From: Nitrospiraceae bacterium
GTDB taxonomy: Bacteria > Nitrospirota > Nitrospiria > Nitrospirales > Nitrospiraceae
Direction of reading: 5' to 3'
DNA: 41,744 nucleotides
Assembly: GCA_014379455.1 (NCBI GenBank)
Contig: JACMLT010000009.1
Coordinates: forward strand, 1 to 41,744
The position numbers and the translations under genes were made by a program. This document shows positions 9,534-38,643 of this stretch, piece after piece (position 1 is the first letter of the stretch; each line of letters begins with the position of its first letter). Under the pieces are notes generated by a model. It did no database searches, was not told the origin of the DNA, and saw only the letters and a list, made by a program, of their open reading frames with translations.

Positions 9534-9569
9534 GTCATAAATCCAGGTTGGCTATAAACTCGATGAACT

Positions 9570-10607: not shown

Positions 10608-10650
10608 CGGTGAACTCCGTTTACTCGATAAAAGAAATGGATAGCCAAGA

Positions 10651-11961
10651 TCACGAAACCTTCGGTGGTGGCGACCCCGCCTTCACCTGCGACAGATAAT
10701 CGATGATCTTTTTCATAGCCCCCGCGCTCAACTTTTGGCCAAATATTTTTGGCATGGTGTTGTCAGGGAACGGCTTCACCACATACGCACTGGGTGAAAC
10801 GATCGACTCCATGATGTAGTCTGGAACGGTCTTTGCCGATCCCTTATAGTCTTTATCCTTCATGCGAAGCAGGGCATTCGTCCCCTCTTCAAGCACAGGA
10901 CCTATCGTTCCCTTCGCTCCTGGAATACCGGGGATCGTATGGCAAGCCACGCACGTCGCCTTTTGAAAAATCACATCGACCGTTTCCGTTCCATCCGCCA
11001 TCAGATCACTCCCACCTGCCGGCTTATCTTCCTGTTGTTTAGGCCGGTCCGCCTCGGGAACAAACTTCTCGTACGATTTAATAATCTCTTCGTATGACGG
11101 AGCATCAACTCCTTCACGAAGATACAGCCAGGTGTCCACGGCTGCCAATTCAGGAAGGCTCAATGAGATTGGTGGCTTGTGAATAGACGGCATGGGGCTT
11201 TCTTTATCGTTCGTCCCTTTCACACCATAACCCGCAACGACATAACAGCTTGGACAGGCATGGGATTCGGCAATATATTCTTGGCCACTTTCAGCAGTCC
11301 CGGCACCGGGGAATGCTTCTTTTTGAGCATAGTCTCTACCAGCCGCCTTGCCTTTACTATATTTCGGATCCTCTAATCGCTCCTTACCTGCTCGCCCTGG
11401 AAGGCCTTGCAAGTTTGGCGCACGCTCACCCAACATCCCTGCATGGAACGCGTGACAGAGAGGACACTGACCTTTGCCAACCGCCCCCTGCTCTTTGTTC
11501 TTTCCAATTCCACCGAAGATGATCTTCTCACCTTCATCGGCAAGTGCCTGGGAGCTCATAGAACTAAAGTCCAGTTTCACCTCTAAGGGAGGGAATCCTC
11601 CTTCGACCTGCGGCAACCAGTTCCCATACCCCGATAGCCCGGCAGCAACAAGAAACATGAACCCACCGATCTTGAACAATGCGGCATGATTGGGAAAATA
11701 GATTCCCATCATGAAGCAGGTCGTAGTGATGAGAACTAAGGAAACCGGAAGCATCCGATTTGCCTCGTAAAAGCTCCCTTTATAATGTGCGATTGCTATC
11801 AACAATAAGAATGCGGAGATTGTACCGATTACGAGCTTGAACAACGAGCGCTTCTTTGCAGTAGCATCCTTAACAGATACCAAGGAATAGACAAAGAGAC
11901 AGGCGAGAAGCGCGAATAGCGGCCACCCTATTGATAGAGCTTCTTTTACTAGATCGCCCAC
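10651..11961 (-). CDS. Membrane-bound multi-domain cytochrome c
   Basis: 436 aa. N-terminal TM helices; CPLCH and CVACH heme sites plus a CPSCY variant at the expected place of a third site. Confidence 0.8.
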   Translation of the reverse strand: MGDLVKEALSIGWPLFALLACLFVYSLVSVKDATAKKRSLFKLVIGTISAFLLLIAIAHYKGSFYEANRMLPVSLVLITTTCFMMGIYFPNHAALFKIGGFMFLVAAGLSGYGNWLPQVEGGFPPLEVKLDFSSMSSQALADEGEKIIFGGIGKNKEQGAVGKGQCPLCHAFHAGMLGERAPNLQGLPGRAGKERLEDPKYSKGKAAGRDYAQKEAFPGAGTAESGQEYIAESHACPSCYVVAGYGVKGTNDKESPMPSIHKPPISLSLPELAAVDTWLYLREGVDAPSYEEIIKSYEKFVPEADRPKQQEDKPAGGSDLMADGTETVDVIFQKATCVACHTIPGIPGAKGTIGPVLEEGTNALLRMKDKDYKGSAKTVPDYIMESIVSPSAYVVKPFPDNTMPKIFGQKLSAGAMKKIIDYLSQVKAGSPPPKVS

Positions 11962-12043
11962 GAATGTAACCTCCTGAAGTTCGGGTAGGAGAGAGGCCCT
12001 TGTCCAGTGCCTCCACTCCCCCAGCCAAGATCCTTAAAGATGA

Positions 12044-13999
12044 TTAGTGGCCACCAGCCGGCTGCGGTGCAGCGCCTGGAACCCCTGCCTTCGCCTCAAC
12101 TGGCACCTTTTTCATCCCGAGACTTCCCAGCCAGAAGACGAATAGGATGCTCACCCAGAAGAACAGCACATTGAATGAGATCATATTTGCTGCAAAACCT
12201 ACCGTATGCGTATAGGCCCACGGCGAGTTATCACGCATAATCTCATTCACGTGCCAGAATAATCTGACCGAGGAACGGATGTACCCCATCAATCCCATCA
12301 TCCAAGTAAAGGCTGTTGCGAGCATAATCAACGCATATTGCGATCGAACAGATATCTTCCCCCATTCAATCGCCCCCATCTGCTTGGCACCCTTCATCAT
12401 GGCGGTGTTCAGCGCAAACATGAAGAAGAGGCAGGACAGTGTGGTTGCAACTTGAGGCACTGACAGACCTACCCGAACGTTCGCCGGGATGTAATAGCCA
12501 TAGATCGCTAGCCATATAATGTTCACATAGGCGCAGCCGAAGAAGACACCCATGAAAATGTTGCCAAATTTCGACCAGGATACCGTTGAGACTTTATTGC
12601 CTCGCATGTACCAGACGAAACTCAGAATGGTGGTGGTGATAATCACATTAATTCCACCGTTCTTAGCCGACATAACCCCATAGTTCCCCAACACCGGGTG
12701 CTGCTGCCCTCCCATAGCCTTGAGCTCCGCCGGAGTCATGACGATCGTGTGGGGGGTAATGAACACCAGGTAGCCGCAACAAAGAACGAATACGAGATAC
12801 TTAATATATCGTTGATATTTCTCCGCGCCGCGCATTCGGCCAAGCGCCTGCCAGAGATAATAGTTCGTGCTCAAGAAAAGGATACCGATCATGGTGGCCT
12901 GAATAATGAAGAGCCAGGCCAGGAGACCGCCCATGAGTGTAATTCCCATCTGCTGGCGATAGGCGTATACCTCCCGCATCAGCCAGTAGCCAGCGAACGG
13001 CAAGGGAATCAGAAATGCCACGCCAAGCGCCATGGCGATATATCCCATCCAGTCATAATGTGCGCGATCTTCATCAGTTTTGGAGGCCAAGAACTTATAC
13101 GCCGCATAGGCCGCCACAACACCGCCTCCGAACGCCATATTTCCCAAGATACGATGCACATTAAGTGGATTCCAGAGAGCGGTATGAATGACGTGCCAAA
13201 TATTTCCCAGATACCGGCCCTGCTCATCGACGCCGGCCGGCGACATCATGAAACCGATCCAGGAATTCGCCAGGAACATAAGCAAGGTACCGATTACGTT
13301 CAAGATCACAGACATGCTCAAGTGAATCCACTTGAGGAACCCCTCTCTCATCTTGTCCCAACCGTAGTAGTAGATATAGAGGGTTCCGCTCTCTGCGACA
13401 AACATCAACGCATAGATATGCATGACCGGACGGAAGATGCCGGATAAGTAGCCGAAGAATGCGGGATAGAGCGTGAGGAAGGTGAAGATCAGGATACCGC
13501 CAAGAATCGCGGTCAATGAGTAGGCTGTCAGGCTGATCTTGATGAAGTCATAGGCGAGCTGGTCATACCGCTTCGCCATCGCTTTATCCTTCGTCACTAC
13601 CCCCATGAACTCGATCACCATACAGAAGATCGGCACTGCAAGCACAAAGCTTCCGTAGTAGAGGTGCTGCTGGTTTGCGAACCAGAGCAACACACGGCTT
13701 TCGAAATTGTATCGCGGATAGTCCCGAGGGCCATCGACTGTCTTTGGAGCAGGAGCGCCGACGACAATACCTTCCGTCTTATAATAGACGTCTCGTCCCT
13801 TCTCGACTTTCGCCTCACCATCCTTCTTCACCGCATCAGGGGCATCTGCGCCCATGGCCAGCGACGGAAGCGATACAGCGATGGGGAGCAGGAGAAGGCC
13901 AACCATCGCGCAAAGCGCCATGATTGAAAATAACTTCTTCCCGGCTACACGTCCCATGAAATACCTCCTTGGAGCATTCTGGAAAAAACTCATAACCAA
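12044..13999 (-). CDS. Cytochrome bd-like terminal oxidase subunit (long Nitrospira type), copy 1
   Basis: 651 aa polytopic. SRVLLWFANQQHLYYGSFVLAVPIFCMVIEF, WHVIHTALWNPLNVHRILGN, PFAGYWLMREVYAYRQQMG; paralogue of 17480..19357. Confidence 0.82.
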   Translation of the reverse strand: MVMSFFQNAPRRYFMGRVAGKKLFSIMALCAMVGLLLLPIAVSLPSLAMGADAPDAVKKDGEAKVEKGRDVYYKTEGIVVGAPAPKTVDGPRDYPRYNFESRVLLWFANQQHLYYGSFVLAVPIFCMVIEFMGVVTKDKAMAKRYDQLAYDFIKISLTAYSLTAILGGILIFTFLTLYPAFFGYLSGIFRPVMHIYALMFVAESGTLYIYYYGWDKMREGFLKWIHLSMSVILNVIGTLLMFLANSWIGFMMSPAGVDEQGRYLGNIWHVIHTALWNPLNVHRILGNMAFGGGVVAAYAAYKFLASKTDEDRAHYDWMGYIAMALGVAFLIPLPFAGYWLMREVYAYRQQMGITLMGGLLAWLFIIQATMIGILFLSTNYYLWQALGRMRGAEKYQRYIKYLVFVLCCGYLVFITPHTIVMTPAELKAMGGQQHPVLGNYGVMSAKNGGINVIITTTILSFVWYMRGNKVSTVSWSKFGNIFMGVFFGCAYVNIIWLAIYGYYIPANVRVGLSVPQVATTLSCLFFMFALNTAMMKGAKQMGAIEWGKISVRSQYALIMLATAFTWMMGLMGYIRSSVRLFWHVNEIMRDNSPWAYTHTVGFAANMISFNVLFFWVSILFVFWLGSLGMKKVPVEAKAGVPGAAPQPAGGH

Positions 14000-14039
14000 T
14001 ATCTGTCAGTCCGGCTCAGTGTAAAATGACCCACATGGT

Positions 14040-14162
14040 CTACTTCCGGAATAGATACCAGAAGTCCAGTCCCTGTGAGTCCATCAAAAAATGGTCTACT
14101 GCGAGAAAATAGGAAATGCACACTACTAACGACACCAGTACATACACGATTGTCATGCCCAT
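14040..14162 (-). CDS. Small single-TM membrane peptide A (40 aa), upstream of the bd-like oxidase
   Basis: Not in the ORF track. MGMTIVYVLVSLVVCISYFLAVDHFLMDSQGLDFWYLFRK*; strong Shine-Dalgarno GGGAGGGAG about 5 nt before ATG. Confidence 0.65.
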   Translation of the reverse strand: MGMTIVYVLVSLVVCISYFLAVDHFLMDSQGLDFWYLFRK

Positions 14163-14205
14163 CGCACTCCCTCCCTAGGCCTCATACATGCTGCAGTGGC
14201 CCTGC

Positions 14206-14334
14206 TTAGCAGGGGCACTGGATTCCAGCGAACCAATAAAAAAACCACAGACCCACCGCACAGGTGATATAAAAAATCATCTTGCCAATTTTGACCTTAA
14301 ACTCGCTATCTGGTGGTGCTGCTGCCGTGGCCAT
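14206..14334 (-). CDS. Small single-TM membrane peptide B (42 aa)
   Basis: Not in the ORF track. MATAAAPPDSEFKVKIGKMIFYITCAVGLWFFYWFAGIQCPC*; strong Shine-Dalgarno GGAGAGAAGGAGA before ATG. Confidence 0.65.
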   Translation of the reverse strand: MATAAAPPDSEFKVKIGKMIFYITCAVGLWFFYWFAGIQCPC

Positions 14335-14391
14335 CGCGTCTCCTTCTCTCCTGATGCAACCAATGTGTCCCGAATCAGCTCAACGACTTTC

Positions 14392-14420
14392 TTGACACAT
14401 AGATACCCGTATGTTATTCA
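14392..14420 (+). promoter_or_regulatory. Putative sigma70-type promoter for small ORF C
   Basis: TTGACA at 14392-14397, 17-nt spacer, weak -10 TATTCA; followed by SD AGAGGA and an ATG at 14459. Confidence 0.4.
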
Positions 14421-14458
14421 AAATTCCTTCTCGCACACGAAAAATCAGAGGAAATTCG

Positions 14459-14563
14459 ATGAAACGAAAATCAAAAGTGTTCGACATTATAGTTTTGGTC
14501 GGAATGGTTGTCAATATACTTTTGGCCGTCTTTCTCATTCTCTATTACTTTGATTTCTTATAA
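14459..14563 (+). CDS. Small single-TM membrane peptide C (34 aa)
   Basis: Not in the ORF track. MKRKSKVFDIIVLVGMVVNILLAVFLILYYFDFL*; basic N-terminus then a long hydrophobic helix; SD AGAGGA upstream. Confidence 0.55.
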   Translation: MKRKSKVFDIIVLVGMVVNILLAVFLILYYFDFL

Positions 14564-14583
14564 GTTTCGCATGGTCTTCCCGT

Positions 14584-15474
14584 TCACTTTTCCTCTAATT
14601 TCACACCAGAAACTGCACAACGAAACCCGATCGTCTCATCGCGAAAGTCCTGAACCAGCTTGCTTCTGCTGGTAATGCGAATATCGGCTCCCGTGGTAGC
14701 ATAGCCTCCCCCACGAAGCACTCGAAATACGCCGTGATCAGGGCCCGGGGAGTTCTGATCCGGAGCCTCTTCGTAGTAGCGCTCCGCATACCAATCATCT
14801 ACCCACTCCATGACATTACCTGCTCCATCCATCACACCGTACGGGCTCTTATCTGTCTGAACTGTCCCGACAATTGCGGAAACTTCATGGCCATCCTCTA
14901 CCCTCGCCCAATTGGCTCCGTTGGGCTGGTCGACATTACCCCAAGGCCACAAGCGTCCATCCGATCCTCGCATGGCTTTTTCCCACTCCGCCTCGCTTGG
15001 AAGCCGCTTCCCTTTCCAATGGCAATAGGCTTCCGCATCCTCCCATGATACGTAGACCACGGGCTGGTTGATGCTCAACATCTTGCTCATGTTCTTGGCG
15101 TAGCGAGCAGGAGGACCAGATTTGCGATGCCCTGTCGCATCGACAAATTGCTGGTACTGAGAGTTGGTCGTTTCATAGCGATCAATGGCAAACGCACCCA
15201 GCACTAGCGTACGTTGCGGCCGCTCATCAAACCCACCTTCATTGGTCCCACGGATGAAGGGTCCTTCCGGAATCGAAATCATTTTTTCTGTAACAGGCTC
15301 TTCACGAGAAGCCTGAGAAGGATTAAGCGGTTCCGATGGGGCCGAATCCGTGGAATCGGCGGAAGGCGCCTCAAACGGAGTGAGCGTCGTGCCACGAAGG
15401 ATTCCCATGATAGGAATCGCAGCAAATGCAAGGATGGCAAGAAGAAACAAGACCTTGAATTTGGTTTCAAGCAT
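14584..15474 (-). CDS. FGE/SUMF-type domain protein, membrane anchored
   Basis: 296 aa. N-terminal TM; ISIPEGPFIRGTNEGG, AFAIDRYETTNSQY, WKGKRLPSEAEWEKAMRG, GNVMEWVDDWY, RVLRGGGY, IGFRCA. Confidence 0.9.
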   Translation of the reverse strand: MLETKFKVLFLLAILAFAAIPIMGILRGTTLTPFEAPSADSTDSAPSEPLNPSQASREEPVTEKMISIPEGPFIRGTNEGGFDERPQRTLVLGAFAIDRYETTNSQYQQFVDATGHRKSGPPARYAKNMSKMLSINQPVVYVSWEDAEAYCHWKGKRLPSEAEWEKAMRGSDGRLWPWGNVDQPNGANWARVEDGHEVSAIVGTVQTDKSPYGVMDGAGNVMEWVDDWYAERYYEEAPDQNSPGPDHGVFRVLRGGGYATTGADIRITSRSKLVQDFRDETIGFRCAVSGVKLEEK

Positions 15475-15479
15475 GTCGG

Positions 15480-16403
15480 TTATGACGCCGCGGGACTATC
15501 GCTGGCCTCCATATCGTTCGCACAGCGAAACCCGATCGTAATATCCGTCCGCCAGGCTTTCGCGGCAAATCGTTTGGATAGGCGCGCAGTATGCTCGGTC
15601 TCTCGCCACGACCCACCGCGCACGACTTTCAAATCCGCACGGTCCGGTCCTTTCGGATCACGAAAGGGCGCTTTCTGGTAATAATGTTCATCGTATGAAT
15701 CTGCAACCCATTCCGCAACATTCCCTGTCATATCATAAATTCCATAGGGGCTTCTGCCTGCCTCAAAGGATCCGGGAGGCGCGAGATATCGATATCCATC
15801 TTCACTTCCATCCAGATTCGCGTTAGCACGGCCATTCCTGGCGGTATCACCCCACGCATACTTTCGCCTTCCCTCACCGCGGCCAGCTTTTTCCCATTCT
15901 GCCTCCGTGGGAAGGCGCTTTCCCGCCCATTTGCAATAGGCCGTCGCCTCGTCCCATGACATGCTCATCGCCGCAAATTCAGACTGCAATAGCTTGGATT
16001 GATCGTCTTCAAACACTTCGATCTTGGGCAACGAACGCTTGGTCATTTTAGCAAACCGGGCATATTCCTCTTGGGACACCTCTTTCCTATCGATATAGAA
16101 TGCGCTTAAAAACACTTGCCGCTCCGGCACCTCATCTGGGTCGCCATCTTTACTCCCCATGATGAATGGGCCTTCAGGAACCTGCACCATCTCTCGTCCC
16201 TCATCGCCTATTTTCGTTTTATACATGGAATAATCCAGCGAGGGGCCGCTGGTCGGCGCAGGTCGAGCTTCAGTCTTGATCGACGAAGCCAGCGCTTTCA
16301 TCTGCTTCGCCTTATAGGACTCATAGACCAGCAAGCTGATCATCAGGAAGAACACTCCAAAGACAAACACGATCGAGCCAACAAGCACTCCCTTATTTTC
16401 CAT
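15480..16403 (-). CDS. FGE/SUMF-type domain protein, membrane anchored (second copy)
   Basis: 307 aa. N-terminal TM; VQVPEGPFIMGSKDGD, WAGKRLPTEAEWEKAGRGEGRRKYAWGD, MTGNVAEWVADSYDEHYY, VVRGGSWRETEH, IGFRCAND. Confidence 0.9.
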   Translation of the reverse strand: MENKGVLVGSIVFVFGVFFLMISLLVYESYKAKQMKALASSIKTEARPAPTSGPSLDYSMYKTKIGDEGREMVQVPEGPFIMGSKDGDPDEVPERQVFLSAFYIDRKEVSQEEYARFAKMTKRSLPKIEVFEDDQSKLLQSEFAAMSMSWDEATAYCKWAGKRLPTEAEWEKAGRGEGRRKYAWGDTARNGRANANLDGSEDGYRYLAPPGSFEAGRSPYGIYDMTGNVAEWVADSYDEHYYQKAPFRDPKGPDRADLKVVRGGSWRETEHTARLSKRFAAKAWRTDITIGFRCANDMEASDSPAAS

Positions 16404-16409
16404 TGCGTC

Positions 16410-16781
16410 TCATGCTCCTCCGGATGCAGTTTTTTTCTTTGCCGCGCGCATATCCAGCAACATCGAAATCTGCACACCGAGAAATCCACCCATCGCGGCG
16501 CCGGCCCCCGCACCCACAGATACTCTCTCCGGTCCGGCAATAAGCCAAGCGAGCGCCCCACCTAGCAGAGTTCCCACCAAAATACTCGCTAAGAAACGCC
16601 GCCCCCCCATAAAGCCGATCACACCGCCGAGCGTCAGCCCTACCCCACTCGCCAGCGGCATGATGCCGCCACCCATAATGACCCCAATAAGCGTCCCGAC
16701 GGTTCCCATCACAGCTACGCCGAACAGGATATCGATTACCCTCTGTATGGGCGCAGCTTGTTCCGTGCCAGGGTTGGCCAT
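16410..16781 (-). CDS. Gly-rich membrane protein
   Basis: 123 aa. Repeated Gly-rich hydrophobic segments (TVGTLIGVIMGGGIMPLASGVGLTLGGVIGFMGG); sits in the gene string. Confidence 0.65.
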   Translation of the reverse strand: MANPGTEQAAPIQRVIDILFGVAVMGTVGTLIGVIMGGGIMPLASGVGLTLGGVIGFMGGRRFLASILVGTLLGGALAWLIAGPERVSVGAGAGAAMGGFLGVQISMLLDMRAAKKKTASGGA

Positions 16782-16801
16782 GTTGACTACGGTCCATTTC
16801 T

Positions 16802-17458
16802 CTAACGTCCGGCGCTCGCCACCATCGAACCAAAATCGATTTCAACACCGGATGCGGCGATGATCGAGATGCCCCAGGCCTTGGCAGCCGGTTCATGTTT
16901 GTGAATCCTCTTGAAATCTTCGTAGACGTTCACACGTTCTTCGAACCATTCCCCGACAGCCTTCGTGCCGCTTTGCACCACGATCTCCGAGCCGCTAAAT
17001 ATACCACCTTCGGTCAGCGTGCCTTCAGGCTTGGTGGCACTCCAGACATACTTCGTAAACACGGGAATAAACATCAGGTCGGTATCTAGCGAGGCATAGA
17101 TTGCCGCAATTGGCTCAGTATCCGTCGTCGCTTTTTGCAGGCGCCAGCGCCACGTGAGGACAGGAAAGGCCTTGGGATCCCAATCGATCTTCTTTTTCTT
17201 GATCCGCTGTCCTGCATCCTTCACCGCAAGAAAATTTACACCGTCCTCTGTCTGGACCTTATACGCATCCCGCCCCTTCGACTGGCTTCGTTGATTTTCA
17301 TGCTCCCAATTCACTGGAAATCCTTCTGCGTCTTTCGTCTGGAAATCCTCCAGAACCAAAGACTGGCCTTGGGCCGTCACCCCGCCCTGCATCACGGCGC
17401 TTCCACACACCGCCAACACGATCGCAAGAGATCTCCAGATCATCACCTTTCGCCTCAT
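16802..17458 (-). CDS. DUF3047-like secreted protein
   Basis: 218 aa. Signal peptide; LEDFQTKDAEGFPVNWEHE, YKVQTEDGVNFLAVKD, FPVLTWRWRL, WGISIIAASG. Confidence 0.75.
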   Translation of the reverse strand: MRRKVMIWRSLAIVLAVCGSAVMQGGVTAQGQSLVLEDFQTKDAEGFPVNWEHENQRSQSKGRDAYKVQTEDGVNFLAVKDAGQRIKKKKIDWDPKAFPVLTWRWRLQKATTDTEPIAAIYASLDTDLMFIPVFTKYVWSATKPEGTLTEGGIFSGSEIVVQSGTKAVGEWFEERVNVYEDFKRIHKHEPAAKAWGISIIAASGVEIDFGSMVASAGR

Positions 17459-17479
17459 ACCCCCTACCCCTTTCGAATG

Positions 17480-19357
17480 TTAGGCCTCTTGCGACGACGA
17501 CGGCGGCGGCGCCAGGACCCTTGCATTTCCCTCGGCTAACTCTTCTCCGATCGCAGGCGACTGATCACGCTGAGACATCCAGAACAGGACGAGCACCGCT
17601 CCCCAGAACACCATCATGTTGAGCGTCACCATCTTCGCCGCGAACGCAAAGTCCGGCGTAAAGGCCCAAGGAGAGACATCAGCCATCAACTCACTGACGT
17701 GCCATGCCAGCCGCCCGGAGGAACGGATATAGCCCATGAGACCCATGACCCATGTGAATGCCGCAGCGAGCCCAAACAAACCCGCCATGCCTCTGAGGGA
17801 AATCTTTCCCCACTGAATCGGCCCGTGAAGGAGCGCCCCCTTGAGCATCATACGATTGATAATCACCCCGACCACGAGGACTGTCAATGTAGTCACAGCC
17901 TGCGGCGTCGACAGCCCGACACGGAGCTTCGCCGGCAGATAGTACCCATAGACTGAGAGCCAGATAATGTTGAACGCCCCCAAGAAAAATAGCGCGCCGA
18001 TGAGGATATTCCCTTTCTTGACCCAGGGCACGACCATCGTTCGATTGGCGCGACGGTAATACAGAAAGCTCATGGTGGTCACAAGAATCATGATGTTGAC
18101 CGCGCCATTTTTTGCCGACATCACGCCGTAGTTGCCGACCACGGGATGAGACGCTCCGCCCATCGCCTTCACTTCACTGGCTGACATAAAGACAGTATGG
18201 GGCGTCAGCCACACAAACAACGCCACCATGAACACCGAGAGCAGTACCTGGTAATAGTGCTGATACCGCTCCCCGCCACGAAGGCGCGCCATACTCTGCC
18301 AAAGGTAAAAGTTGACACCAAGGAAAAGGACGCCGATCAAAATGGCCTGCACGACAAAGAGCCAGGTGAGTAGCCCGCCCATCATCGTCACCCCCATGCT
18401 CTGGCTGAATGCATAGACCGATCGCATCAACCAATAGCCAGCAAAGGGCATCGGCAACAAGGCGATAACCGTGACGAATAGAAAAATATGCCCGACCCAG
18501 TCGAAATAGGCGCTCTCTTTTTCGGTCTTACTGGTAAAAAACCGATAGCAGGCATATGCCATCACCACCGCACCGCCGGACATAATGTTGGCCAGGAACC
18601 GGTGGACATTTAGTGGATTCCACAGCGCCGAATGGAGCAAATGCCATCCATTCCCCAAAAACTGCCCCTTTGCATCGACACCAGCTGGCGCCATCATGAA
18701 AGCCGACCAGGCGTTTGCCAACAGCAGCAGTGCCGTCCCAAAGAGATTGCTCAACAGACCGATCGAGGCATGAGCCCATTTCGAAGCCGGTACAGTCAGC
18801 CGACTCCAACTATAGTAATAGGTGATGAGTAGCAGCGATTCTCCGAGAAACACGAACGCGTAGACCGGCATAAACGTTTTGAACGTCCCCCCCATGTACT
18901 TCATGAAGCTGGGATAGAAATAGAGAAATATTCCCAGCATGCAGCTCCCAACCACGGCCGTTACCGACAAGGCGAGGAGAGCGACTTTTGCCAGATCCCG
19001 CGCAAGGCCGTCATAGCGAAGGGCAAGTTCTGGATTTTTGCTCCTGAGCCCAAGAAATTCCAGCAACACACAAAAAATCGGCAACGCGAGAACAAACCCT
19101 CCGAAGTAGGTGTGGAGCTGGGTGACAAACCACACGAGTAGTCGACTATCCATCTCTCCAATGCGTGAGTAGACCGTCTCCTGGGGAGAAGGAGCCGGCG
19201 GCCCCTCTGGAGCCCCTGGTGTTTTGAAGTACAGATCAGTCGCCTCCTCAGCAAAGGATTGGCTCTGAAGCCCCCAACCAATCCCCAAGGCCACGAGAAC
19301 AACCAACAGCAGGACAGAAGACCCGACTGCTCTGAATATTTTCTTATTCATAGCCAT
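17480..19357 (-). CDS. Cytochrome bd-like terminal oxidase subunit, copy 2
   Basis: 625 aa. WHLLHSALWNPLNVHRFLAN, PFAGYWLMRSVYAFSQSMGVTMMGG, SHPVVGNYGVMSAKNGAVN; clear paralogue of 12044..13999. Confidence 0.82.
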   Translation of the reverse strand: MAMNKKIFRAVGSSVLLLVVLVALGIGWGLQSQSFAEEATDLYFKTPGAPEGPPAPSPQETVYSRIGEMDSRLLVWFVTQLHTYFGGFVLALPIFCVLLEFLGLRSKNPELALRYDGLARDLAKVALLALSVTAVVGSCMLGIFLYFYPSFMKYMGGTFKTFMPVYAFVFLGESLLLITYYYSWSRLTVPASKWAHASIGLLSNLFGTALLLLANAWSAFMMAPAGVDAKGQFLGNGWHLLHSALWNPLNVHRFLANIMSGGAVVMAYACYRFFTSKTEKESAYFDWVGHIFLFVTVIALLPMPFAGYWLMRSVYAFSQSMGVTMMGGLLTWLFVVQAILIGVLFLGVNFYLWQSMARLRGGERYQHYYQVLLSVFMVALFVWLTPHTVFMSASEVKAMGGASHPVVGNYGVMSAKNGAVNIMILVTTMSFLYYRRANRTMVVPWVKKGNILIGALFFLGAFNIIWLSVYGYYLPAKLRVGLSTPQAVTTLTVLVVGVIINRMMLKGALLHGPIQWGKISLRGMAGLFGLAAAFTWVMGLMGYIRSSGRLAWHVSELMADVSPWAFTPDFAFAAKMVTLNMMVFWGAVLVLFWMSQRDQSPAIGEELAEGNARVLAPPPSSSQEA

Positions 19358-28913: not shown

Positions 28914-29988
28914 GTCTCCTGGATTAATGTGACTGACTCCTGTTTGATCTCAGCACCCGCTCCTCTATCGCCTGCGTCATGTCGTATCCGGCACGACGGC
29001 ACACGACGCTCCTGGTCTGTCATAGTTCATGTCCATGGCGGGCGTGGGCGTATGTCTCCACGCTGGACAGGTGAGCAATTGCTGTTCAATGAAAAAGAGA
29101 AACAGAAGAGGCAAGGATTGCGGAACGGAGCGGTATGGATATTATGCGTGCGTGCAAGCTCGACACCAGGCTACGAAGAGGGAGAGTAATGCCTCGCCAC
29201 TTACAGGCCACAGTTCCCTTCATGCGCTTCCTCGGTCCAGCCATGATCGCACCATTAGGTACGCGAAACGACGCCGCAATATATTGATGCCCATGCACGC
29301 AGTCAATACCAAAACCCGCCTTTAAGAAGTATTCCAAAAATAAAAGTTTCTAAGGCTAACTGCGTGCACAGTAGCCTGAGCAAATGATATGCCAACGTAG
29401 AAAAATAGAATTAGTCCAAACCACGTATATGTCGAATGACGAGTCGGTAGGCCCTTGAATGAGAGGAATCAACTACTGAGGAATCATTAAAAGCATAGTT
29501 AATTCAAGTAGCTCTGACAGGATTGTGTTGCAATCAATCGCACCTCCGGCCACCACATCGTTGACCTCGCTCCCTCCTCCATCGGCGTACTCATGCCTGC
29601 ACCCACGCTCGAACCGCTCTGCTCCTGGGCGCTAAGTAGCCTCACCCTGAGGCGTTCTTGATGCTCACGTGAAACATGGAGGGTGAAACGTTAGGCATAC
29701 AGGGCACGGATAGTTGGTCGGGTCTATCTCGTTCATCTTGTCTATCCCATCTATTCGATCTGCCTTGTTGGATGGACAAACACACCAGACCAACCAAAAA
29801 ACCAGATGCCCGAGAGAAGTGAGCGGCCTGGAGTAAACGGCAAGAGGAGGGAATTTACGGAGGGAGGGGCTGCAAAGTGGCCAGCCAGGCTTTTAGAAGA
29901 ACGTGGTGATCAGCTCCAGAACTTGTTTTGTACGGTAGAGACTCCCCTTGTGGGGCAGTTCCTCTCGGTGCAATTCGGATAACGCTGG

Positions 29989-30407
29989 CTAATCGGCTCC
30001 GAACAGATCGAGATCCAATGGGGCCACGGCGACAATTCGTTTAAAATCACTATCCACACTCCACAGCGGAAGGTCATGCAAGAAGCGCGGTGGCGGCAAT
30101 CAGGAGGTCTGCAGCGGAACGCTTTGGCCTTTTCTGGCAAGCTGATGACCCAAACGGGCTGCACGCTCCCATGTCTGGTCCAAGAGTGGGGCCTGTTCGA
30201 GCGCCGCCATTTGTTCATTGATGATCGCCCACCGTTCCGGATTTTTGACGCCGATGAGCAGTTCAACTCGAATCGGCCAACATATCCACACGGAGCGGCT
30301 ACGAGGAATTTTTTCAGTCGATCCTTCAGAGCGTCATGGCCCTTGCGATCCGCCCGAATCCAGACGCTGGTGTCAATGAGGCACGGCCCGGTATCAGGAG
30401 CGGGCAT
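29989..30407 (-). pseudogene. Frameshifted VapC-type PIN-domain toxin
   Basis: PIN pieces in different frames: MPAPDTGPCLIDTSVWIRADRKGHDALKDRLKKFLV / CWPIRVELLIGVKNPERWAIINEQMAALEQAPLLDQTWERAARLGHQLARKGQSVPLQT / DLLIAATALL / HDLPLWSVDSDFKRIVAVAPLDLDLFGAD*. Confidence 0.8.
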
Positions 30408-30624
30408 GCGTGCGACGGCGGAGAGAGCGGAACTCGGCTTCGGTAGTTTCAAAGACTCCTGTACCCAAGGCGTGCGCCAACGCCTTGCGATGCTCAAACT
30501 TCACCAGTTCCTCAAGGGCTTTAGCGATGGTCTCTCGCTTGGTTCGCGAGCAGGTCAATCGCCTCGCTTCAGTCAGCAGTCGGTGATCCAGCGCCACGGA
30601 AAGTTGTTTTGTCGTGCCAGCCAT
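30394..30624 (-). CDS. VapB-like antitoxin (intact)
   Basis: MAGTTKQLSVALDHRLLTEARRLTCSRTKRETIAKALEELVKFEHRKALAHALGTGVFETTEAEFRSLRRRTHARS*; overlaps the start of the vapC remnant. Confidence 0.75.
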   Translation of the reverse strand: MAGTTKQLSVALDHRLLTEARRLTCSRTKRETIAKALEELVKFEHRKALAHALGTGVFETTEAEFRSLRRRTHARS

Positions 30625-30746
30625 AGGCGCCACAATATCTTGATTGTGATGCCAAATCAACAAATCGGAAGTCTGAACTTCAGTTTGGAGGCGGGGATCA
30701 AGAACAAGACAAAGAGCAAATAGCCGAGAGATTGAAGTTCATGACA

Positions 30747-30813: not shown

Positions 30814-31608
30814 TTACTTGATTTCAGCCTTGAGGTTGGCAGTTCCACCGTCGGCTACATCGACTTCGAACTCCACTTTCTTGCCCTTGGCGGCAAACGG
30901 ATGCCAGGCCACCACTTTGTGCTTACCGGCCGGCACATCCTTGATCTCAAAGGAGCCATCATCCTTCACGACCGCAAAGTGCGGGCTCGATACCGGAAGA
31001 AAATACCCCTGCATGAATTCATGCTGGTCGCACTGTAAACGGTAAAAACCATCCTTCTCGGCTCCGCCACGGAACACCACTGGCTTGTCGAGCTTGTCAC
31101 CCTTCTTGGCCAAAGCGATGTTGAACCCAGTGGCCGAGCTGGTGCCCTTCACGACGAAGCTGTGCGGATTATGGAGCACGCCTTGGAGCGACTTTGGATC
31201 ATCCGGATCGGCATCATGATTCTCAACCTTGAAGGACTTGTTATTCACCACCACACCGGCAAACGGCAGGAACTCGCAGAATTCCGCAATCACCTCAGTG
31301 CCCGCATACCCATCCATAAACGCCTTATCTTCGACGTCAATGACGGCGACCACCGCATGCTTCAGCCCACCATCCTTCCCGACTTCGATGGTCTTCAAAA
31401 GTCGTTTATCCCCATCCATCAACGACTTGTTTGGGTTCTGCGGACAGAACTTGGGATTGGGGAACTTCGAGAACAAAAATTCCTTTTGCTCGGACTTTCC
31501 GGCAAAGGTTACCTTGCCGGAAATCGTTCCGCCTGCGAACGAGGTGAGAGGCGCCGCGACGAACGCGACGGCTGCCACGCCAAATATGATTGATAGTGCG
31601 CTCTTCAT
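30814..31608 (-). CDS. Secreted cupredoxin-type protein with C-terminal carboxypeptidase-regulatory-like domain (copy 1)
   Basis: 264 aa. Signal peptide; FKVENHDADPDD...HNPHSF, LQCDQHEFMQGYFLPVSSPHFAV (C-x2-H-x2-M), GSFEIKDVPAGKHKVVAWHP. Confidence 0.72.
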   Translation of the reverse strand: MKSALSIIFGVAAVAFVAAPLTSFAGGTISGKVTFAGKSEQKEFLFSKFPNPKFCPQNPNKSLMDGDKRLLKTIEVGKDGGLKHAVVAVIDVEDKAFMDGYAGTEVIAEFCEFLPFAGVVVNNKSFKVENHDADPDDPKSLQGVLHNPHSFVVKGTSSATGFNIALAKKGDKLDKPVVFRGGAEKDGFYRLQCDQHEFMQGYFLPVSSPHFAVVKDDGSFEIKDVPAGKHKVVAWHPFAAKGKKVEFEVDVADGGTANLKAEIK

Positions 31609-31891: not shown

Positions 31892-32371
31892 CTAGTTTTT
31901 GTTCGCCCTGGTCAACCCAAGCAACTTTATCGACTGCTGTGCAGCGGCGCGAGCCTTAGTGGCGGGATTGAGCAGCTGTCCTGGGTCGGCATGGATGCCG
32001 ATATCCGACACACGGTTGCATTGCCGGATTACTTCATTGAGGGAAATCATGGCATCGGCTCGATGGAGATCTGATGCTGAAAGCTGCTTGATGAGTTTCT
32101 CGGCAATACGCGTCGCCTCTCCGCAGTGATGGACGATGGCCTTTGCATCTCCCATTCCACCATGCGCCACCATCTCTTCGACGTTCTTCATCAGACCGTC
32201 TCCCTGCTCTTGCAAACTAGCACTCGATGACTCTGCTGCGCGAGCAGGACTCATATCTGAGACAATGGGAACCCACAGGCCGGCTAAGCCTAGCAGCATA
32301 AGAGTCGGCATGCTCCCACCTCTCATCATATGAACTAATCTCACATCTCCTCCTGTACCCTTATGACTCAC
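31892..32371 (-). CDS. SmbP-like small metal-binding secreted protein (putative)
   Basis: 159 aa. Signal region; HGGMGDAKAIVHHCGEATRIAEKLIKQL...HADPGQLLNPATKARAAAQQSIKLL helical His-containing pattern. Confidence 0.55.
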   Translation of the reverse strand: MSHKGTGGDVRLVHMMRGGSMPTLMLLGLAGLWVPIVSDMSPARAAESSSASLQEQGDGLMKNVEEMVAHGGMGDAKAIVHHCGEATRIAEKLIKQLSASDLHRADAMISLNEVIRQCNRVSDIGIHADPGQLLNPATKARAAAQQSIKLLGLTRANKN

Positions 32372-32475: not shown

Positions 32476-32988
32476 CTACGGATTATATCGGCCCTTTGGT
32501 GGCAGTGGGAGAGATGTCAGACCCTTGTAGAGACGGTGAAACTCTTCGGTCGTGAGGGTTTCATTCTGTAATTGAGCAAGAGTGGCCTGATCGATGGGAT
32601 ATTCAACCGTGTCGTCGTAGTTCGATGAGGCGATCGTGACAAACCGTGGAGGGAAAAGTCTCTCCGGTAGAAGAATTCCCACACCGAGGTTGTACTTGAG
32701 TGCCAACCGGATCGTTTCTCGTGCCTTGTCAGCCGGGACGTCTCGGCCCAGACCGATGTTTTGTGGGGGCTGCCCCTGTCTAAAAAACTGAAAATGGACG
32801 TTGGGCATCCCCGCCTGGACAAATTCTTCCGTCACTGTGGCAATCTGATTTTTGTACTGACTCGCCAGCACGACTTCAACGCGGCTAACCGGAGGTACCG
32901 CGACAGCTTCGGCAGCTACGGTATGAGCGCCCACCATGCCCGCACACAGGGCAAGCATCACCACATGAAGAAATCGAGAACACCCCAT
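32476..32988 (-). CDS. Secreted protein of unknown function
   Basis: 170 aa with signal peptide; starts 3 nt after the upstream gene's stop. Confidence 0.65.
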   Translation of the reverse strand: MGCSRFLHVVMLALCAGMVGAHTVAAEAVAVPPVSRVEVVLASQYKNQIATVTEEFVQAGMPNVHFQFFRQGQPPQNIGLGRDVPADKARETIRLALKYNLGVGILLPERLFPPRFVTIASSNYDDTVEYPIDQATLAQLQNETLTTEEFHRLYKGLTSLPLPPKGRYNP

Positions 32989-32990
32989 GG

Positions 32991-33767
32991 CTATTTCGCC
33001 TCAAAACTAAATCCTAACGAGGCAGTTCCATCCACCACCACTGTCACGTCTTCCACTTTCTCCCCAAGAGTCGGATGCCACGCCTTGATCCGATACCTCC
33101 CGGCCGGAAGATCCTTGATCGCAAAGGTTCCCTCCAACCCGGTGATCGCGTAATACGGATTGTCAATGGCAAGCCCGTGTCCTTGCATGAATGGATGCAT
33201 GCCACATTGCATGGTCACGTCGCGGCGGCTCCCTGTAAATTTAATGATATCGCTCGTCCCGGCCTTGGTCAACGCCGGCCGATGGAACATGATAAACACG
33301 TGCTCTTGATCCCGTTCATAGAACTGCAAATCGTGTGAGACCGGATCCAGATTTTTCACAGTCAGGGGATGGTTCTCCCGCATGACCGACACAAACGGGA
33401 CGAATTGACAGATATTCGCCTCCAAATTCGTTTCAGCAAAATCAAACGGTTTCCCTTTTTCAATGCCTTCGACTGTCACAATGACATCTTTCAACCCTTG
33501 CTGTGCTCCAACAGAGACTTCTCGAAGCAGCCGATACCCTGACCCATCGGATAATGCCCCGCAATAGACTCGATCATAATATCGGCGAAGCTCAAACGGT
33601 GTAGGCGGTGGAATTTCGCCTGAAAATTGCACCGTCCCAGTGACCGTGCCACCGTTTGATACCGTCATTTCCTCGTAAGCCCAAGCGGCGATCGGGGCAC
33701 TTACGAACATGCTCAGTACGATCGAGTGACAGATAGAAACCACAACGCGCCATCCATGTATAGTCAT
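32991..33767 (-). CDS. Secreted cupredoxin-type protein with C-terminal carboxypeptidase-regulatory-like domain (copy 2)
   Basis: 258 aa. LTVKNLDPVSHDLQFY, VTMQCGMHPFMQGHGLAIDNPYYAITGLEGTFAIKDLPAGRYRIKAWHP; paralogue of 30814..31608. Confidence 0.75.
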   Translation of the reverse strand: MTIHGWRVVVSICHSIVLSMFVSAPIAAWAYEEMTVSNGGTVTGTVQFSGEIPPPTPFELRRYYDRVYCGALSDGSGYRLLREVSVGAQQGLKDVIVTVEGIEKGKPFDFAETNLEANICQFVPFVSVMRENHPLTVKNLDPVSHDLQFYERDQEHVFIMFHRPALTKAGTSDIIKFTGSRRDVTMQCGMHPFMQGHGLAIDNPYYAITGLEGTFAIKDLPAGRYRIKAWHPTLGEKVEDVTVVVDGTASLGFSFEAK

Positions 33768-33900: not shown

Positions 33901-36900
33901 TTACCGTCCACCTGTCGATGTCCGCGACACGGCTCCGCCATTTTCACTCTCTGCCGTCTTGGTCGGTGGGACCTGGGGCATCAACGGAAGAATCCGCTGA
34001 TCCTCAACCGGCAACACCTTGAAGAGACCCCATTGTCCTGCATTGGCAAACGCCGGACGTTGGTTTTTCCACATATAGTCGCCGACGATCTTATTTGGTC
34101 CGCCTGCGCCCCCTGTCAGGTACGCATTAATCACTTCAGACCCACCGAACTCCATGGTGCTGACCTGGTCGGCACCCTGCGAATACGGCTCATGCGGCCA
34201 TTCATGGCCATCGACGGTGAACAGCTGAACCTGCTCACTGAACGCGCCGAGCACATGGATAGCCACGGGATCTCCAACATGTGCCTGTAACAGCGGCGTC
34301 GCAGGTCCAGCAGCCCCGGCTTTGACACAGCTAAAGAGCTCCGACACGTCACAACCCTTTTCCATCCGCCAGGCAGTCGGTTCCGACTGATAATTCACAG
34401 CCGTAATGCCGGCCACCTGTTGGATGTAGGGCATGAAGCTCACGCCTACGATGTTGTCTTCGTCCTGGAACATCAATGAGAAGGAACGGTAGTTCTTCCG
34501 GTTCTCATTCCCGGGGATCATCCGATCCACGAGCACATCTGCGCGCCAGCTGCTCTTCATCGTCACATCGGCGCCCGTCATTGGATCGCGGTAGTGCGAT
34601 CCCTTGGGGCCGACAATGATCGAGCCGAACAGGCCATTGCGTGGATTTTCGACCACGTTCCCCCAATCTTGAATGAGGGCTGCTAGTTCTCCATATTCCT
34701 GATGAGCATAATAGGTGTATGTCTTGCTCTGCCCAGGACCGATCGTTTGATCGCCCGGGTTGTTGCCGACATTGGCGCCGAACGAATCCTTTGGATCGAA
34801 CGCCATCATATCGACATGGAATCCTGCCCGCTCTTTTGCCATTTCATTTTTCAGATTGATCTTCATGCAATCGCCGACGTTCACATGCAAGGTCAGCGGG
34901 CTCGGCCTCAGTTCGCCTGCCTTGACCTTGCCACGATCGCCGTCGAGTACATACATCTTGCCCTGCTCGTTCCCAAATACCATCTTCCGTTCCAAATCGA
35001 CTTCCATCACGCCCGGCGTCCCTTCGTGGTATCGGATGTTCTGGTCGATCGCAGACACGTTGAAGGTTTTCACTGGAGCGTCTGCCGGACAGATCGACGG
35101 AGCGGACTTTTGAATCTGCTCACGGCTCGGCAAGGGCTTCAGATCCCCCTGCAGTTCATCGAAGACTCGGAAAATTCCCCAACTGCCTTCCGCAAAGTGG
35201 GAGGCACGGCCACTATAGTAGAGATAGTCGCCAGCCTGCTTCTGCGGTCCCCCCGCTGCTGGAATCGCCGGATCGTATCGTTCTCCGATTGCCAGGTGAA
35301 TCGTGCTCCGCGGCATGGCGGTCGTCGAATACCGTTCCATCGGGAACCAATGGCCCGTCACGTGCCAGGTATGCACTTCGTTTGCAGACCCAACCAAGGC
35401 ACGCACCAGAATCGGATCGCCAAGATAGGCCCGCAACAATGGAGTACCTGGATCACCGTGAATACCGGATACGAAGAGTTTCGATGGGTCCGGGTTCTGG
35501 GCTAATCGTACACTCAACGGCTCCACACGCATGCTGTAGCCGCTTCCGGTGGTGGCTTCGCCGCCATTCAGAAACCACATCGGTGACTTATTGATGCGCT
35601 CAGGGAACTGATGGGACGGCGGCCCATCGACGGTGGTCGCCCCCACTCTCGCTTGCGGATTATCGGTCGTGATTAATTCCGCCGTCCGCGCATTGCTGTC
35701 CATGATATGCATCATGACTTCGCGGAAACTTCCACGAATGTGAGCTGAGACCGGCTCCAAGGTATGAATATCTGCAATGGGGCCGCTCCGGATTTCTTTC
35801 CCGGTAACCGGATCGTGATAGGTCGAGCGCGGCGGCTCGGTGATGAATGCGGAGAATAGTCCGTGTCCCCAGGTATCGGTTCCGAAGACATGGTCGTGCC
35901 AATACACCGTACCGAAATCGGAATCGACATACCAGCGCTCACGGATAAATTCGACGCTGGCAATATCATTCTTTTTATGGTCGTACTTCAACGGTGCATC
36001 GAATGTGATGGTCTTTCCATTGATGGTTTTGATCCTTACCACTTCGAAGTACTTTGGATCGTCCATCCCCACACCCAGCTCAATGTTCACATGGAACTTC
36101 GATGCATCGGCCACGGTAATACTGCGCGCGCCGGCTTTCGAATCCGCTGTCTGTACCGTGTTTCCAGGAAGAGGCATCCCCTTAGTAGGCTGCGGATCCG
36201 TCAGCATGGTGAAGGCACGCAGCGACATGTCATACGAAAATCCGATCGTTGGACCATCAGATGCGCTGGTATCGAATTGGAAAAAATGCGGATGGAGGTT
36301 GACCTTGTTCGCCCATCCTGTCCGTGCATCATCCGGTATCTCGTTCTTGTAGATGATGTCGACACAATCGTAGACATTTCCACGAATAACCAACGGGAGC
36401 TGCTTTTTGGGATTTTTGCGAACTTCAGCCTCTTCCTCGTGCAACACAAAAATCATTCCAATGGGGTCGACAAGGGCGGCGGATTTGGCCGTCGCCGGCT
36501 TAAGTGTAATCGGCAGCGTAATGGCATGAGTCGTGTAGAACTTGCGCGGAGAATTTTCAGGACACAAACTCCACGGCCCCTGCTCACCCGGCCTGGCCTG
36601 TTCCGTACTCTTGGTTCCATCTTCGCGCACATGGAACGGTTCTAACCATGGTGCTCCACCATGATTCGGTGCAAAGGGCGGCCGCTTCCCAAGATGTGGA
36701 CGCAGCCAGGGGAACGCCAGCTTCCCAGTTTGCGGATCGAACGTAATGGCCGGACGCTTCAAAGGAGTTGGTGACTCATAATCCGCCCACTTGTGCGGTG
36801 TCTCAGGCTCATTCAGCGCCAATGCACCTTCCCACTTCCAATTCACCACCGTCGCATCATTCGCCTGGGCCTGCTTCACTTGATCTTCGGTCTTGCCGGG

Positions 36901-38643
36901 CAATCCTTGCGGCGGCAACATATACTCGACCCAATCCTTGATGGAGACCTTGACCGGATTGGCTTTCCAATCTGTCTTATCCTTCGTGATCTCCCACTTC
37001 TTCCCGCCATACCAATCCACGGTGGTCCCGACCAGCTTGTCCGAGCTGACCGCGAGCTTGATCTTCCCCTTGCGATCAGGAAGCTCGATGAGCGGCTTCA
37101 TCACGTCAGTTTGGAACCCGGTCGACTGCAACGTGTTGTAGACACGCCAGAATCCCCACATTCCCGTCACATAGTGCTGCGGGATATGGCAGTGAAATAC
37201 AAACTCTCCGGCCAACGCCTGCAAGCCGCCTGACCCACCCTCGGTTACCTCATCGTAAATTTCCGACGGACCGATTGACTGAACGTCTAGCCGGTCCGAC
37301 GGATCGCTGATGGGCGGAAATTTCACCGGGCCGTTCTTTGACAAGGTCGGATCGATCCTGCTGGTGCCCGGCTGTCTGGACCAACGGATGGAACCGCCAT
37401 GCAGATGGTGCGAATGCACGATTTCAGACCCACCGACCATCCGGAACGTAGCCGGATCCCCTAAATATGAGCGGGGAACCGTGGTGGCGGGATCACCAAA
37501 CGTGTAGGACCCATAGCCTTGCGACTCATCGGAAAACCCGACCAGGTGCTCCTGCTGCTCGAGTCGTGTTCCATGTGGTTCGCTGCGATAGTTGAGCAAG
37601 CGCGCCCCCGGCCGGTACGTGTCCGTGTGCGGATCACGCTGTGGCAACATGTCTCCTTTGCGATTCAACAATCTAAACGTTTCGTCTCCTGCCTCATGAT
37701 AGAAAATAACAAATTCGCGGAAGTCCGAGGCGTTCGCCAGATCAATCATGGCCTCCCAGCCGCTCTTCATTTCCTCACCGGTAAACGGGCTCAGATGTCG
37801 AGACCCGCGCTGCTCAACCACAAGCGAACCTAACAGGCCCAGGGAATACTGCTCTCTGGTCGCATGGCTATGGAACGCGCGCCCGCCCACCTGAAGATCC
37901 ATCGGAATGTACCACTCGAACTCGCCCTGCTTCCCTGTTGGCACCAATGCATCAGGATTATTGGCGGTCGCCGGCTTACCCGTGCTGGCGACAAGCATCT
38001 GCGATCCGTTCACGATCATGTTGGTCGGCTCGTCGGTTATCTGATTTCGCAATGTGATTCGGAGACAATCTCCTTGGTTCGCTCGAATGACCAACGGTTG
38101 AATCAGATCACCCTGTAAACCGTTCGACACGGCGCCGGTGGCGAACGTCGGATCGTCGCTTTCCCGCGCAGCCTTGTTCTTCTCTTCCTCCTCACGCACA
38201 CCGGCCACATTTTCGGTCAGCGCATACATATACCCTGGGTAGAAATCTCCAAATCGATTCACGGAAATTTCAACGTTGATCGTCGAAATATCGAAGGCAC
38301 GGACAGGGGCTTGCGCCGGACAGCGAGCCCCTTGCGTGACCTTCACCTTATCCTGATCTTCTGCGACGAGTAGGATACCCTGCTGCATCGCATGGGCTCC
38401 GGCACCCTGGAACGGCCCTTTGCTCTGCACCTGCCGCTCGATTTGCTCGATGGCCTTCGACATCTTATCCATCAGCATCGGACCTGCCTGCACATTCACC
38501 GGTGTCGCCACATCGACAGCGGAATCCACTGCGACATGCGTGTCATGCGACACAACCGCACGCGCGGAATTCGGCTCGGCGAACAAGATACAGGCCGCAA
38601 GCCCCATCATCCCCGCCCCTACCCACTTCTGTGATGCACTCAT
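33901..38643 (-). CDS. Giant multi-cupredoxin multicopper oxidase (MnxG/MofA-like architecture)
   Basis: 1580 aa. Signal peptide; copper motifs FHSHA, HSHHLHGG, FHCHIPQHYVTGM, LHPHFFQFD, WHDHVFG, VHTWHVTGHWFPM; three repeats starting CP-x-x-[AS]-P-x-[RK]. Confidence 0.88.
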   Translation of the reverse strand: MSASQKWVGAGMMGLAACILFAEPNSARAVVSHDTHVAVDSAVDVATPVNVQAGPMLMDKMSKAIEQIERQVQSKGPFQGAGAHAMQQGILLVAEDQDKVKVTQGARCPAQAPVRAFDISTINVEISVNRFGDFYPGYMYALTENVAGVREEEEKNKAARESDDPTFATGAVSNGLQGDLIQPLVIRANQGDCLRITLRNQITDEPTNMIVNGSQMLVASTGKPATANNPDALVPTGKQGEFEWYIPMDLQVGGRAFHSHATREQYSLGLLGSLVVEQRGSRHLSPFTGEEMKSGWEAMIDLANASDFREFVIFYHEAGDETFRLLNRKGDMLPQRDPHTDTYRPGARLLNYRSEPHGTRLEQQEHLVGFSDESQGYGSYTFGDPATTVPRSYLGDPATFRMVGGSEIVHSHHLHGGSIRWSRQPGTSRIDPTLSKNGPVKFPPISDPSDRLDVQSIGPSEIYDEVTEGGSGGLQALAGEFVFHCHIPQHYVTGMWGFWRVYNTLQSTGFQTDVMKPLIELPDRKGKIKLAVSSDKLVGTTVDWYGGKKWEITKDKTDWKANPVKVSIKDWVEYMLPPQGLPGKTEDQVKQAQANDATVVNWKWEGALALNEPETPHKWADYESPTPLKRPAITFDPQTGKLAFPWLRPHLGKRPPFAPNHGGAPWLEPFHVREDGTKSTEQARPGEQGPWSLCPENSPRKFYTTHAITLPITLKPATAKSAALVDPIGMIFVLHEEEAEVRKNPKKQLPLVIRGNVYDCVDIIYKNEIPDDARTGWANKVNLHPHFFQFDTSASDGPTIGFSYDMSLRAFTMLTDPQPTKGMPLPGNTVQTADSKAGARSITVADASKFHVNIELGVGMDDPKYFEVVRIKTINGKTITFDAPLKYDHKKNDIASVEFIRERWYVDSDFGTVYWHDHVFGTDTWGHGLFSAFITEPPRSTYHDPVTGKEIRSGPIADIHTLEPVSAHIRGSFREVMMHIMDSNARTAELITTDNPQARVGATTVDGPPSHQFPERINKSPMWFLNGGEATTGSGYSMRVEPLSVRLAQNPDPSKLFVSGIHGDPGTPLLRAYLGDPILVRALVGSANEVHTWHVTGHWFPMERYSTTAMPRSTIHLAIGERYDPAIPAAGGPQKQAGDYLYYSGRASHFAEGSWGIFRVFDELQGDLKPLPSREQIQKSAPSICPADAPVKTFNVSAIDQNIRYHEGTPGVMEVDLERKMVFGNEQGKMYVLDGDRGKVKAGELRPSPLTLHVNVGDCMKINLKNEMAKERAGFHVDMMAFDPKDSFGANVGNNPGDQTIGPGQSKTYTYYAHQEYGELAALIQDWGNVVENPRNGLFGSIIVGPKGSHYRDPMTGADVTMKSSWRADVLVDRMIPGNENRKNYRSFSLMFQDEDNIVGVSFMPYIQQVAGITAVNYQSEPTAWRMEKGCDVSELFSCVKAGAAGPATPLLQAHVGDPVAIHVLGAFSEQVQLFTVDGHEWPHEPYSQGADQVSTMEFGGSEVINAYLTGGAGGPNKIVGDYMWKNQRPAFANAGQWGLFKVLPVEDQRILPLMPQVPPTKTAESENGGAVSRTSTGGR

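Follow-up and report, generated by a model that had tools for sequence, protein, structure and literature searches.

A secreted multicopper oxidase with six cupredoxin domains, related to MnxG, in Nitrospira

A genome of a Nitrospiraceae bacterium encodes a large secreted multicopper oxidase (MCO), and the question raised by this locus is what such an enzyme would oxidize. We analyzed it within a stretch of 41,744 nucleotides (contig JACMLT010000009.1), the whole of which is referred to here as the window. MnxG-like MCOs of Nitrospira and Nitrospina are already known (PMC3578206, PMC12070406). A conserved periplasmic enzyme of this kind was described in N. gracilis and Ca. N. defluvii, for which Mn(III)-based protection against ROS was proposed (PMC3578206), and Nitrospira MAGs with MnxG have been cited along with a suggested role in manganese removal (PMC12070406). 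In a tunnel biofilm, almost every nitrifier MAG was reported to have MnxG, McoA or MoxA, together with a warning of MCO promiscuity (PMC11995701). Two novel MCOs have been noted in all Manganitrophaceae (PMC9040806). We found no literature report of a purified member of the family studied here. The family is present in nearly every examined genome of the genus Nitrospira and across the class, often in several copies. If its substrate were Mn(II), it would bear on why the abundance of Nitrospira follows manganese removal in drinking-water filters; were it Cu(I) or a cupredoxin partner, part of the copper or oxygen physiology of nitrifiers would be explained.

Architecture and copper sites of the oxidase

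The preliminary description of this DNA had reported an ORF of 1580 aa with a series of repeated motifs, and all of these are present at the stated coordinates, on the minus strand, which had not been specified (Table 1). They comprise the unit-opening motifs CPAQAPVRAF (C108), CPENSPRKFY (C694) and CPADAPVKTF (C1185), the unit-end motifs GMWGFWRV, GSWGIFRV and GQWGLFKV, and the copper motifs HSHHLHGG (residues 410–417), HCHIPQHYVTGM (484–495), LHPHF (783–787) and WHDHVFG (915–921). Judged by eye, the N-terminus MSASQKWVGAGMMGLAACILFAEPNSARA looks like a Sec signal peptide. The protein matches the Pfam families Cu-oxidase_3 and Cu-oxidase_2, and its top sequence relative in the PDB, the single outstanding match, is MnxG (9bxa, E 3.8e-90).

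Table 1. Position of the oxidase gene, its parts and its downstream neighbors in the window
Feature	Coordinates	Strand	Basis
Secreted six-cupredoxin-domain MCO, 1580 aa	33901..38643	-	ORF; Pfam; PDB 9bxa; fold match to 9bxa
Unit 1 (domains 1-2, residues ~105-520)	37084..38331	-	HHalign unit comparison
Domain 2 C motif HSHHLH (H410 type-1; H413, H415 trinuclear)	37399..37416	-	Invariant in 34; mapped to MnxG
Domain 2 D motif HCHIPQHYVTGM (H484, H486 trinuclear; C485, H490, M495 type-1)	37159..37194	-	Alignment; mapped to MnxG
Linker of units 1/2 (~residues 520-693), longer than in MnxG	36565..37086	-	Motif spacing
Unit 2 (domains 3-4, residues ~698-1190)	35074..36552	-	HHalign unit comparison
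Domain 3 A motif HPH (H784, H786 trinuclear)	36286..36294	-	Alignment; mapped to MnxG
Small beta insert lying between the A and B motifs of domain 3 (~residues 805-895), which MnxG lacks	35959..36231	-	A-to-B spacing
Domain 3 B motif HDH (H916, H918 trinuclear)	35890..35898	-	Alignment; mapped to MnxG
Unit 3 (domains 5-6, residues ~1190-1562), lacking a full copper site	33958..35076	-	HHalign and alignment
CupA: secreted, C-x2-H-x2-M (C188, H191, M194), C-terminal CarboxypepD_reg-like sandwich; candidate blue-copper partner	32991..33767	-	Pfam; motif alignment; conserved neighbor
D170: conserved secreted 170-aa protein, no Pfam family	32476..32988	-	Pfam; conserved neighbor
SMBP-like small protein, possible metal binder	31892..32371	-	Pfam SMBP E 0.0019, under cut-off; conserved neighbor
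CupB: second CupA-family protein	30814..31608	-	Pfam and alignment

The three units are mutually homologous (HHalign 99.7–99.9%, with profiles of residues 105–520, 698–1190 and 1190–1562), and domains 1, 3 and 5 match one another, as do domains 2, 4 and 6; thus, the protein is built of six cupredoxin domains in three tandem units, in agreement with the initial proposal. The predicted fold also points this way, as 9bxa was the best solved Foldseek match of the AlphaFold fragment models of residues 100–1185 (pLDDT 62.9, pTM 0.64; E 4.2e-48) and 690–1560 (pLDDT 73.1, pTM 0.75; E 3.5e-53), with structures of factor V/VIII and ceruloplasmin ranking next. At the domain 2 copper site, and over most of domain 2, the model confidence is below 50 pLDDT.

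We aligned 34 sequences (27 from Nitrospiria, a Streptomyces plasmid protein, Priestia MnxG, and haloarchaeal, Rubrobacter and proteobacterial proteins) and found that 11 His/Cys ligands are invariant (H410, H413, H415, H484, C485, H486, H490, H784, H786, H916 and H918), while the axial M495 is nearly so. This set is composed of the eight His of a trinuclear center, located in domains 2 and 3, and the His, Cys and His of one type-1 site. The counterparts in Priestia MnxG, which scores 1705 bits against 9bxa, are H280, H283, H285, H333, C334, H335, H339, H528, H530, H574 and H576, with M344 in place of M495; the Ala found at the H490 equivalent of 9bxa is due to this entry being an H340A mutant, according to its title. 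The type-1 site is complete in domain 2 only (H410, C485, H490, M495), and its counterparts in domains 4 and 6 have no Cys; the late type-1-like sites quoted earlier, YYSGRASHFAEGSW and YMWKNQRPAFANAGQW, are indeed Cys-less. The earlier inferences of degenerate later type-1 sites and of a trinuclear center, expected between domains 2 and 3, are supported. The permuted order of the motifs, also pointed out at that stage, is present as well; however, it is not novel, being normal for bacterial six-domain MCOs, which share this placement of sites (PMC3600357). By its units, its trinuclear His and a type-1 site confined to domain 2, the protein belongs, as judged from its sequence, to the bacterial six-domain MCOs (MnxG-type superfamily). 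The E value for 9bxa, the homology of the units and the invariance of the ligands place both kinship and architecture far beyond chance.

We infer that these sites would be occupied by copper and would serve O2 reduction. Electrons from the reduced substrate would enter singly at the domain 2 type-1 copper, cross the H484-C485-H486 bridge (H-C-H) and be spent on the reduction of O2 to water by a trinuclear center located between domains 2 and 3 (H413, H415, H484, H486, H784, H786, H916, H918), while domains 1 and 4–6 would close a ceruloplasmin-like ring with no other complete site. We propose this route because established MCO chemistry and the anatomy described above suggest it. With two of the three type-1 sites lost, one could also think of an MCO-derived protein that has become inactive and serves a structural or binding purpose, yet the remaining type-1 and trinuclear ligands are all conserved, and we hold this to be extremely improbable.

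A separate observation concerns domain 1 (residues ~207–260), where class-level relatives (eight loci) retain HxH in each of two positions, one A-like and one B-like (LHIHGS, FHSHV). The window MCO keeps FHSH alone, and the pairs were lost stepwise across Nitrospira clades. They may be what is left of one half of a second trinuclear site, or else an extra metal site.

Distribution and phylogeny in Nitrospiria

Close orthologs (85–98%) of the oxidase occur in many Nitrospira assemblies, and the host of the window is a Nitrospira. The earlier reading had suggested a nitrite oxidizer; this label is lent to the host by kinship and would be provisional. A PF00384 search for NXR alpha in the draft genome returned two frames of ~900 aa and one fragment.

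We found matches to the MCO family in 31 of the 32 genomes of the genus and, across the phylum, in 114 genomes of a sample of 296; among the matches listed, all fall in one class. Nitrospira possesses at least three paralog clades, i.e., that of the window MCO, one at ~70% and one at ~53%, and the genome studied here has a copy of the ~70% type on its contig C305. In one relative, two MCO paralogs are arranged in tandem (L127, 4707–16377), separated by a gene for a 393-aa protein which by eye resembles a PQQ-type beta-propeller. In several MAGs (six loci) the MCO ORFs are split into two to three pieces, reflecting either sequencing error or real decay. A link of the oxidase to comammox only was rejected, since genomes devoid of AMO, including that of the window and two others, also hold an ortholog.

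In a maximum likelihood tree all 36 Nitrospiria sequences formed one clade with a support of 100, with the Streptomyces protein as its sister and Priestia MnxG placed elsewhere; the tree was computed by a quick method, without MofA and Pseudomonas McoA/MnxG, and its long branches leave the deep order unsure. A separate Nitrospiria clade outside MnxG is, on this phylogenetic evidence, strongly supported.

Gene neighborhood and possible substrates

Downstream of the window MCO, the genes are ordered cupA, d170, smbp-like and cupB, an organization which recurs in many Nitrospira loci. A cupA-type gene lies within 3.5 kb downstream in 47 of 66 Nitrospiria MCO genes, class-level relatives included, with d170 near 33 and smbp near 28 of them; the 66 are those with at least 2.5 kb of downstream sequence, with a few duplicates among them and six non-Nitrospirota rows excluded. 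The conserved MCO-CupA-D170-SMBP operon points to candidate partners of the oxidase, which adds some interest to the locus. The C-x2-H-x2-M motif, invariant across the CupA and CupB proteins, is the pattern of a pseudoazurin-like type-1 site; Pfam and PDB profiles matched only the C-terminal sandwich of these proteins and recognized no cupredoxin fold in CupA. In relatives, cupB adjoins a cluster of O-methyltransferase and bd-like oxidase genes. The window itself contains two genes for oxidases of the cytochrome bd-like type, two that are FGE-like, DUF420 and O-methyltransferase genes, and genes for three cytochrome c proteins, one of them with an EB_dh domain; the bd-like oxidase, FGE-like and cytochrome c genes are found at 7740–19357.

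Such surroundings could suit an oxidase for electron disposal, which would oxidize reduced CupA/CupB or cytochrome c and pass excess electrons to O2 outside the membrane. The class-wide recurrence of the cupA-family gene, the invariance of its copper-site-like motif and the bd-like oxidases and cytochrome c proteins of the window all speak for it. However, the profile matches of CupA stop at the sandwich domain, and no protons would be pumped, so that there is no obvious energetic gain from such disposal; we regard this explanation as unlikely, though it is one of the two main rivals. In turn, the SMBP-like and copper-site-like neighbors, as well as the copper-rich metabolism of ammonia-oxidizing relatives (AMO is found in 12 of the 32 genus genomes), could indicate the other main rival, a copper-tolerance enzyme which, like CueO or PcoA, oxidizes Cu(I) that is toxic in the periplasm. 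Yet the MCO lacks a Met-rich segment, with never more than 4 Met in 40 residues, and neither a copper P-type ATPase nor CopB was found among the window proteins or the scanned conserved neighbor clusters, which leaves this role rather doubtful.

The reading we prefer, to which we assign a probability of about 0.5, is that of a secreted MnxG-like six-domain MCO with a metal ion, foremost Mn(II), as its substrate and a role in periplasmic metal and redox protection. We infer the substrate and the physiological role as follows. A metal ion, with Mn(II) likelier than Cu(I) or Fe(II), is favored because of the MnxG kinship and the metal-handling look of the operon. The enzyme would act beside the Nitrospira respiratory cluster, with the SMBP and CupA/CupB proteins binding metal or carrying electrons. 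Metal oxidation, with Mn(II) in first place, would be the best reading and a plausible one, the substrate being predicted solely from kinship within a promiscuous class of enzymes. A more far-reaching version, in which a distinct Nitrospiria subfamily with its CxxHxxM partner would deliver metal-derived electrons (those of Mn(II), for example) to or from a periplasmic respiratory carrier, and not only to O2, forming a metal-linked redox circuit in nitrifiers, appears improbable to us.

Several other features of these loci were noted. FGE-sulfatase-like genes repeatedly adjoin MCO genes (e.g., L041, 8721–9662, minus strand). In six loci, a dCache histidine kinase and/or sigma-54 response regulator is encoded directly upstream of the MCO gene of relatives (e.g., L064, 5972–9480), and TGGAAC-N5-TTGCT-like sites precede the MCO gene in three of them. 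Sigma-54-like sites score 9–10 in several relatives with an adjoining two-component system; no such system adjoins the window MCO, and a sigma-54 promoter was rejected for it, the best match reaching just 6 of 12 consensus positions. At 29910–30663 of the window (minus strand), we saw by eye a small, possibly antitoxin-like ORF (30394–30663) beside an ORF with a PIN-toxin-like start, LIDTSVWIRADRKG, after which the frame seems to be lost; this is perhaps a decayed toxin-antitoxin pair.

Comparison with MnxG and other known oxidases

The kinship to MnxG proposed at the outset holds for both sequence and fold, 9bxa being the best match in each. MnxG of the Bacillus Mnx complex has, like the window MCO, six cupredoxin domains, one type-1 site in domain 2 and a set of trinuclear ligands drawn from domains 2 and 3, with the motifs in the same order. 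Yet the two proteins are ~29% identical over their best BLAST segment and differ in length (1580 aa in the window MCO vs. 1228 aa). The window MCO possesses an insert of ~85 residues in domain 3, where A and B motifs are spaced by 132 residues vs. 46 in Priestia MnxG, and its units 1 and 2 are joined by a longer linker (293 residues from the end of the D motif to the A motif vs. 188). The NCBIfam MnxG model NF041487, whose 1894 positions do not correspond to the length of Bacillus MnxG, gave 136.5 bits against a cut-off of 3100. MnxE and MnxF are required for Mnx activity (PMC5622069). We detected no MnxE/MnxF-like ORFs in ~50 flanking loci using phmmer with the two small genes upstream of Priestia MnxG. 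Orthology to MnxG was rejected on the basis of the tree, the NCBIfam score and the absence of MnxE/F neighbors. The MnxG ortholog itself is found on a Priestia megaterium plasmid (L117, 4940–9267), where the two small genes precede it at the MnxE/MnxF position and a CopC gene lies farther upstream.

MnxG kinship and the link of Nitrospira to manganese removal in sand filters (PMC12070406) might nevertheless suggest a functional full MnxG, i.e., a dedicated Mn(II)-to-Mn(IV) biomineralizing oxidase, possibly supporting growth. Against this stand the lack of MnxE/F in the flanks and a clade separate from MnxG, and it has been argued that no energy is conserved when electrons pass straight to O2 (PMC9040806). 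We find such an enzyme very improbable, and growth on it unlikely unless, by the same argument, the electrons had an energy-conserving exit.

Within the plasmid collection, the nearest relative found beyond the phylum is an MCO from a plasmid of Streptomyces sp. NBC_00335 (92% coverage, 34% identity). It has the HxHHxHGG motif in common with the window MCO, as well as the linker and the insert of domain 3; unlike the latter, it is 1772 aa long and adjoins a gene with a CopC domain. Ceruloplasmin and hephaestin resemble the MCO by Foldseek in their six-domain cupredoxin ring. In the ceruloplasmin type, however, the trinuclear center is formed at domains 1/6 and type-1 sites occupy domains 2, 4 and 6, whereas domain 6 of the MCO has neither a C nor a D motif and domains 4 and 6 are devoid of Cys; a ceruloplasmin-type ferroxidase was rejected on this placement of copper sites. 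Ferroxidases such as Fet3p (D409) and ceruloplasmin (E971) carry an acidic residue four positions before the type-1 His. In the MCO this position is S406, and the one at -3 is E407, acidic throughout the Nitrospiria family. A CueO/PcoA-type three-domain cuprous oxidase was likewise rejected, the MCO having six domains and no Met-rich segment. The periplasmic MCO of Nitrospina gracilis and Ca. N. defluvii is MnxG-like and clustered with bd-like oxidases and electron carriers, a cluster which the layout of bd-like oxidase, cytochrome c and MCO genes in the window resembles (PMC3578206).
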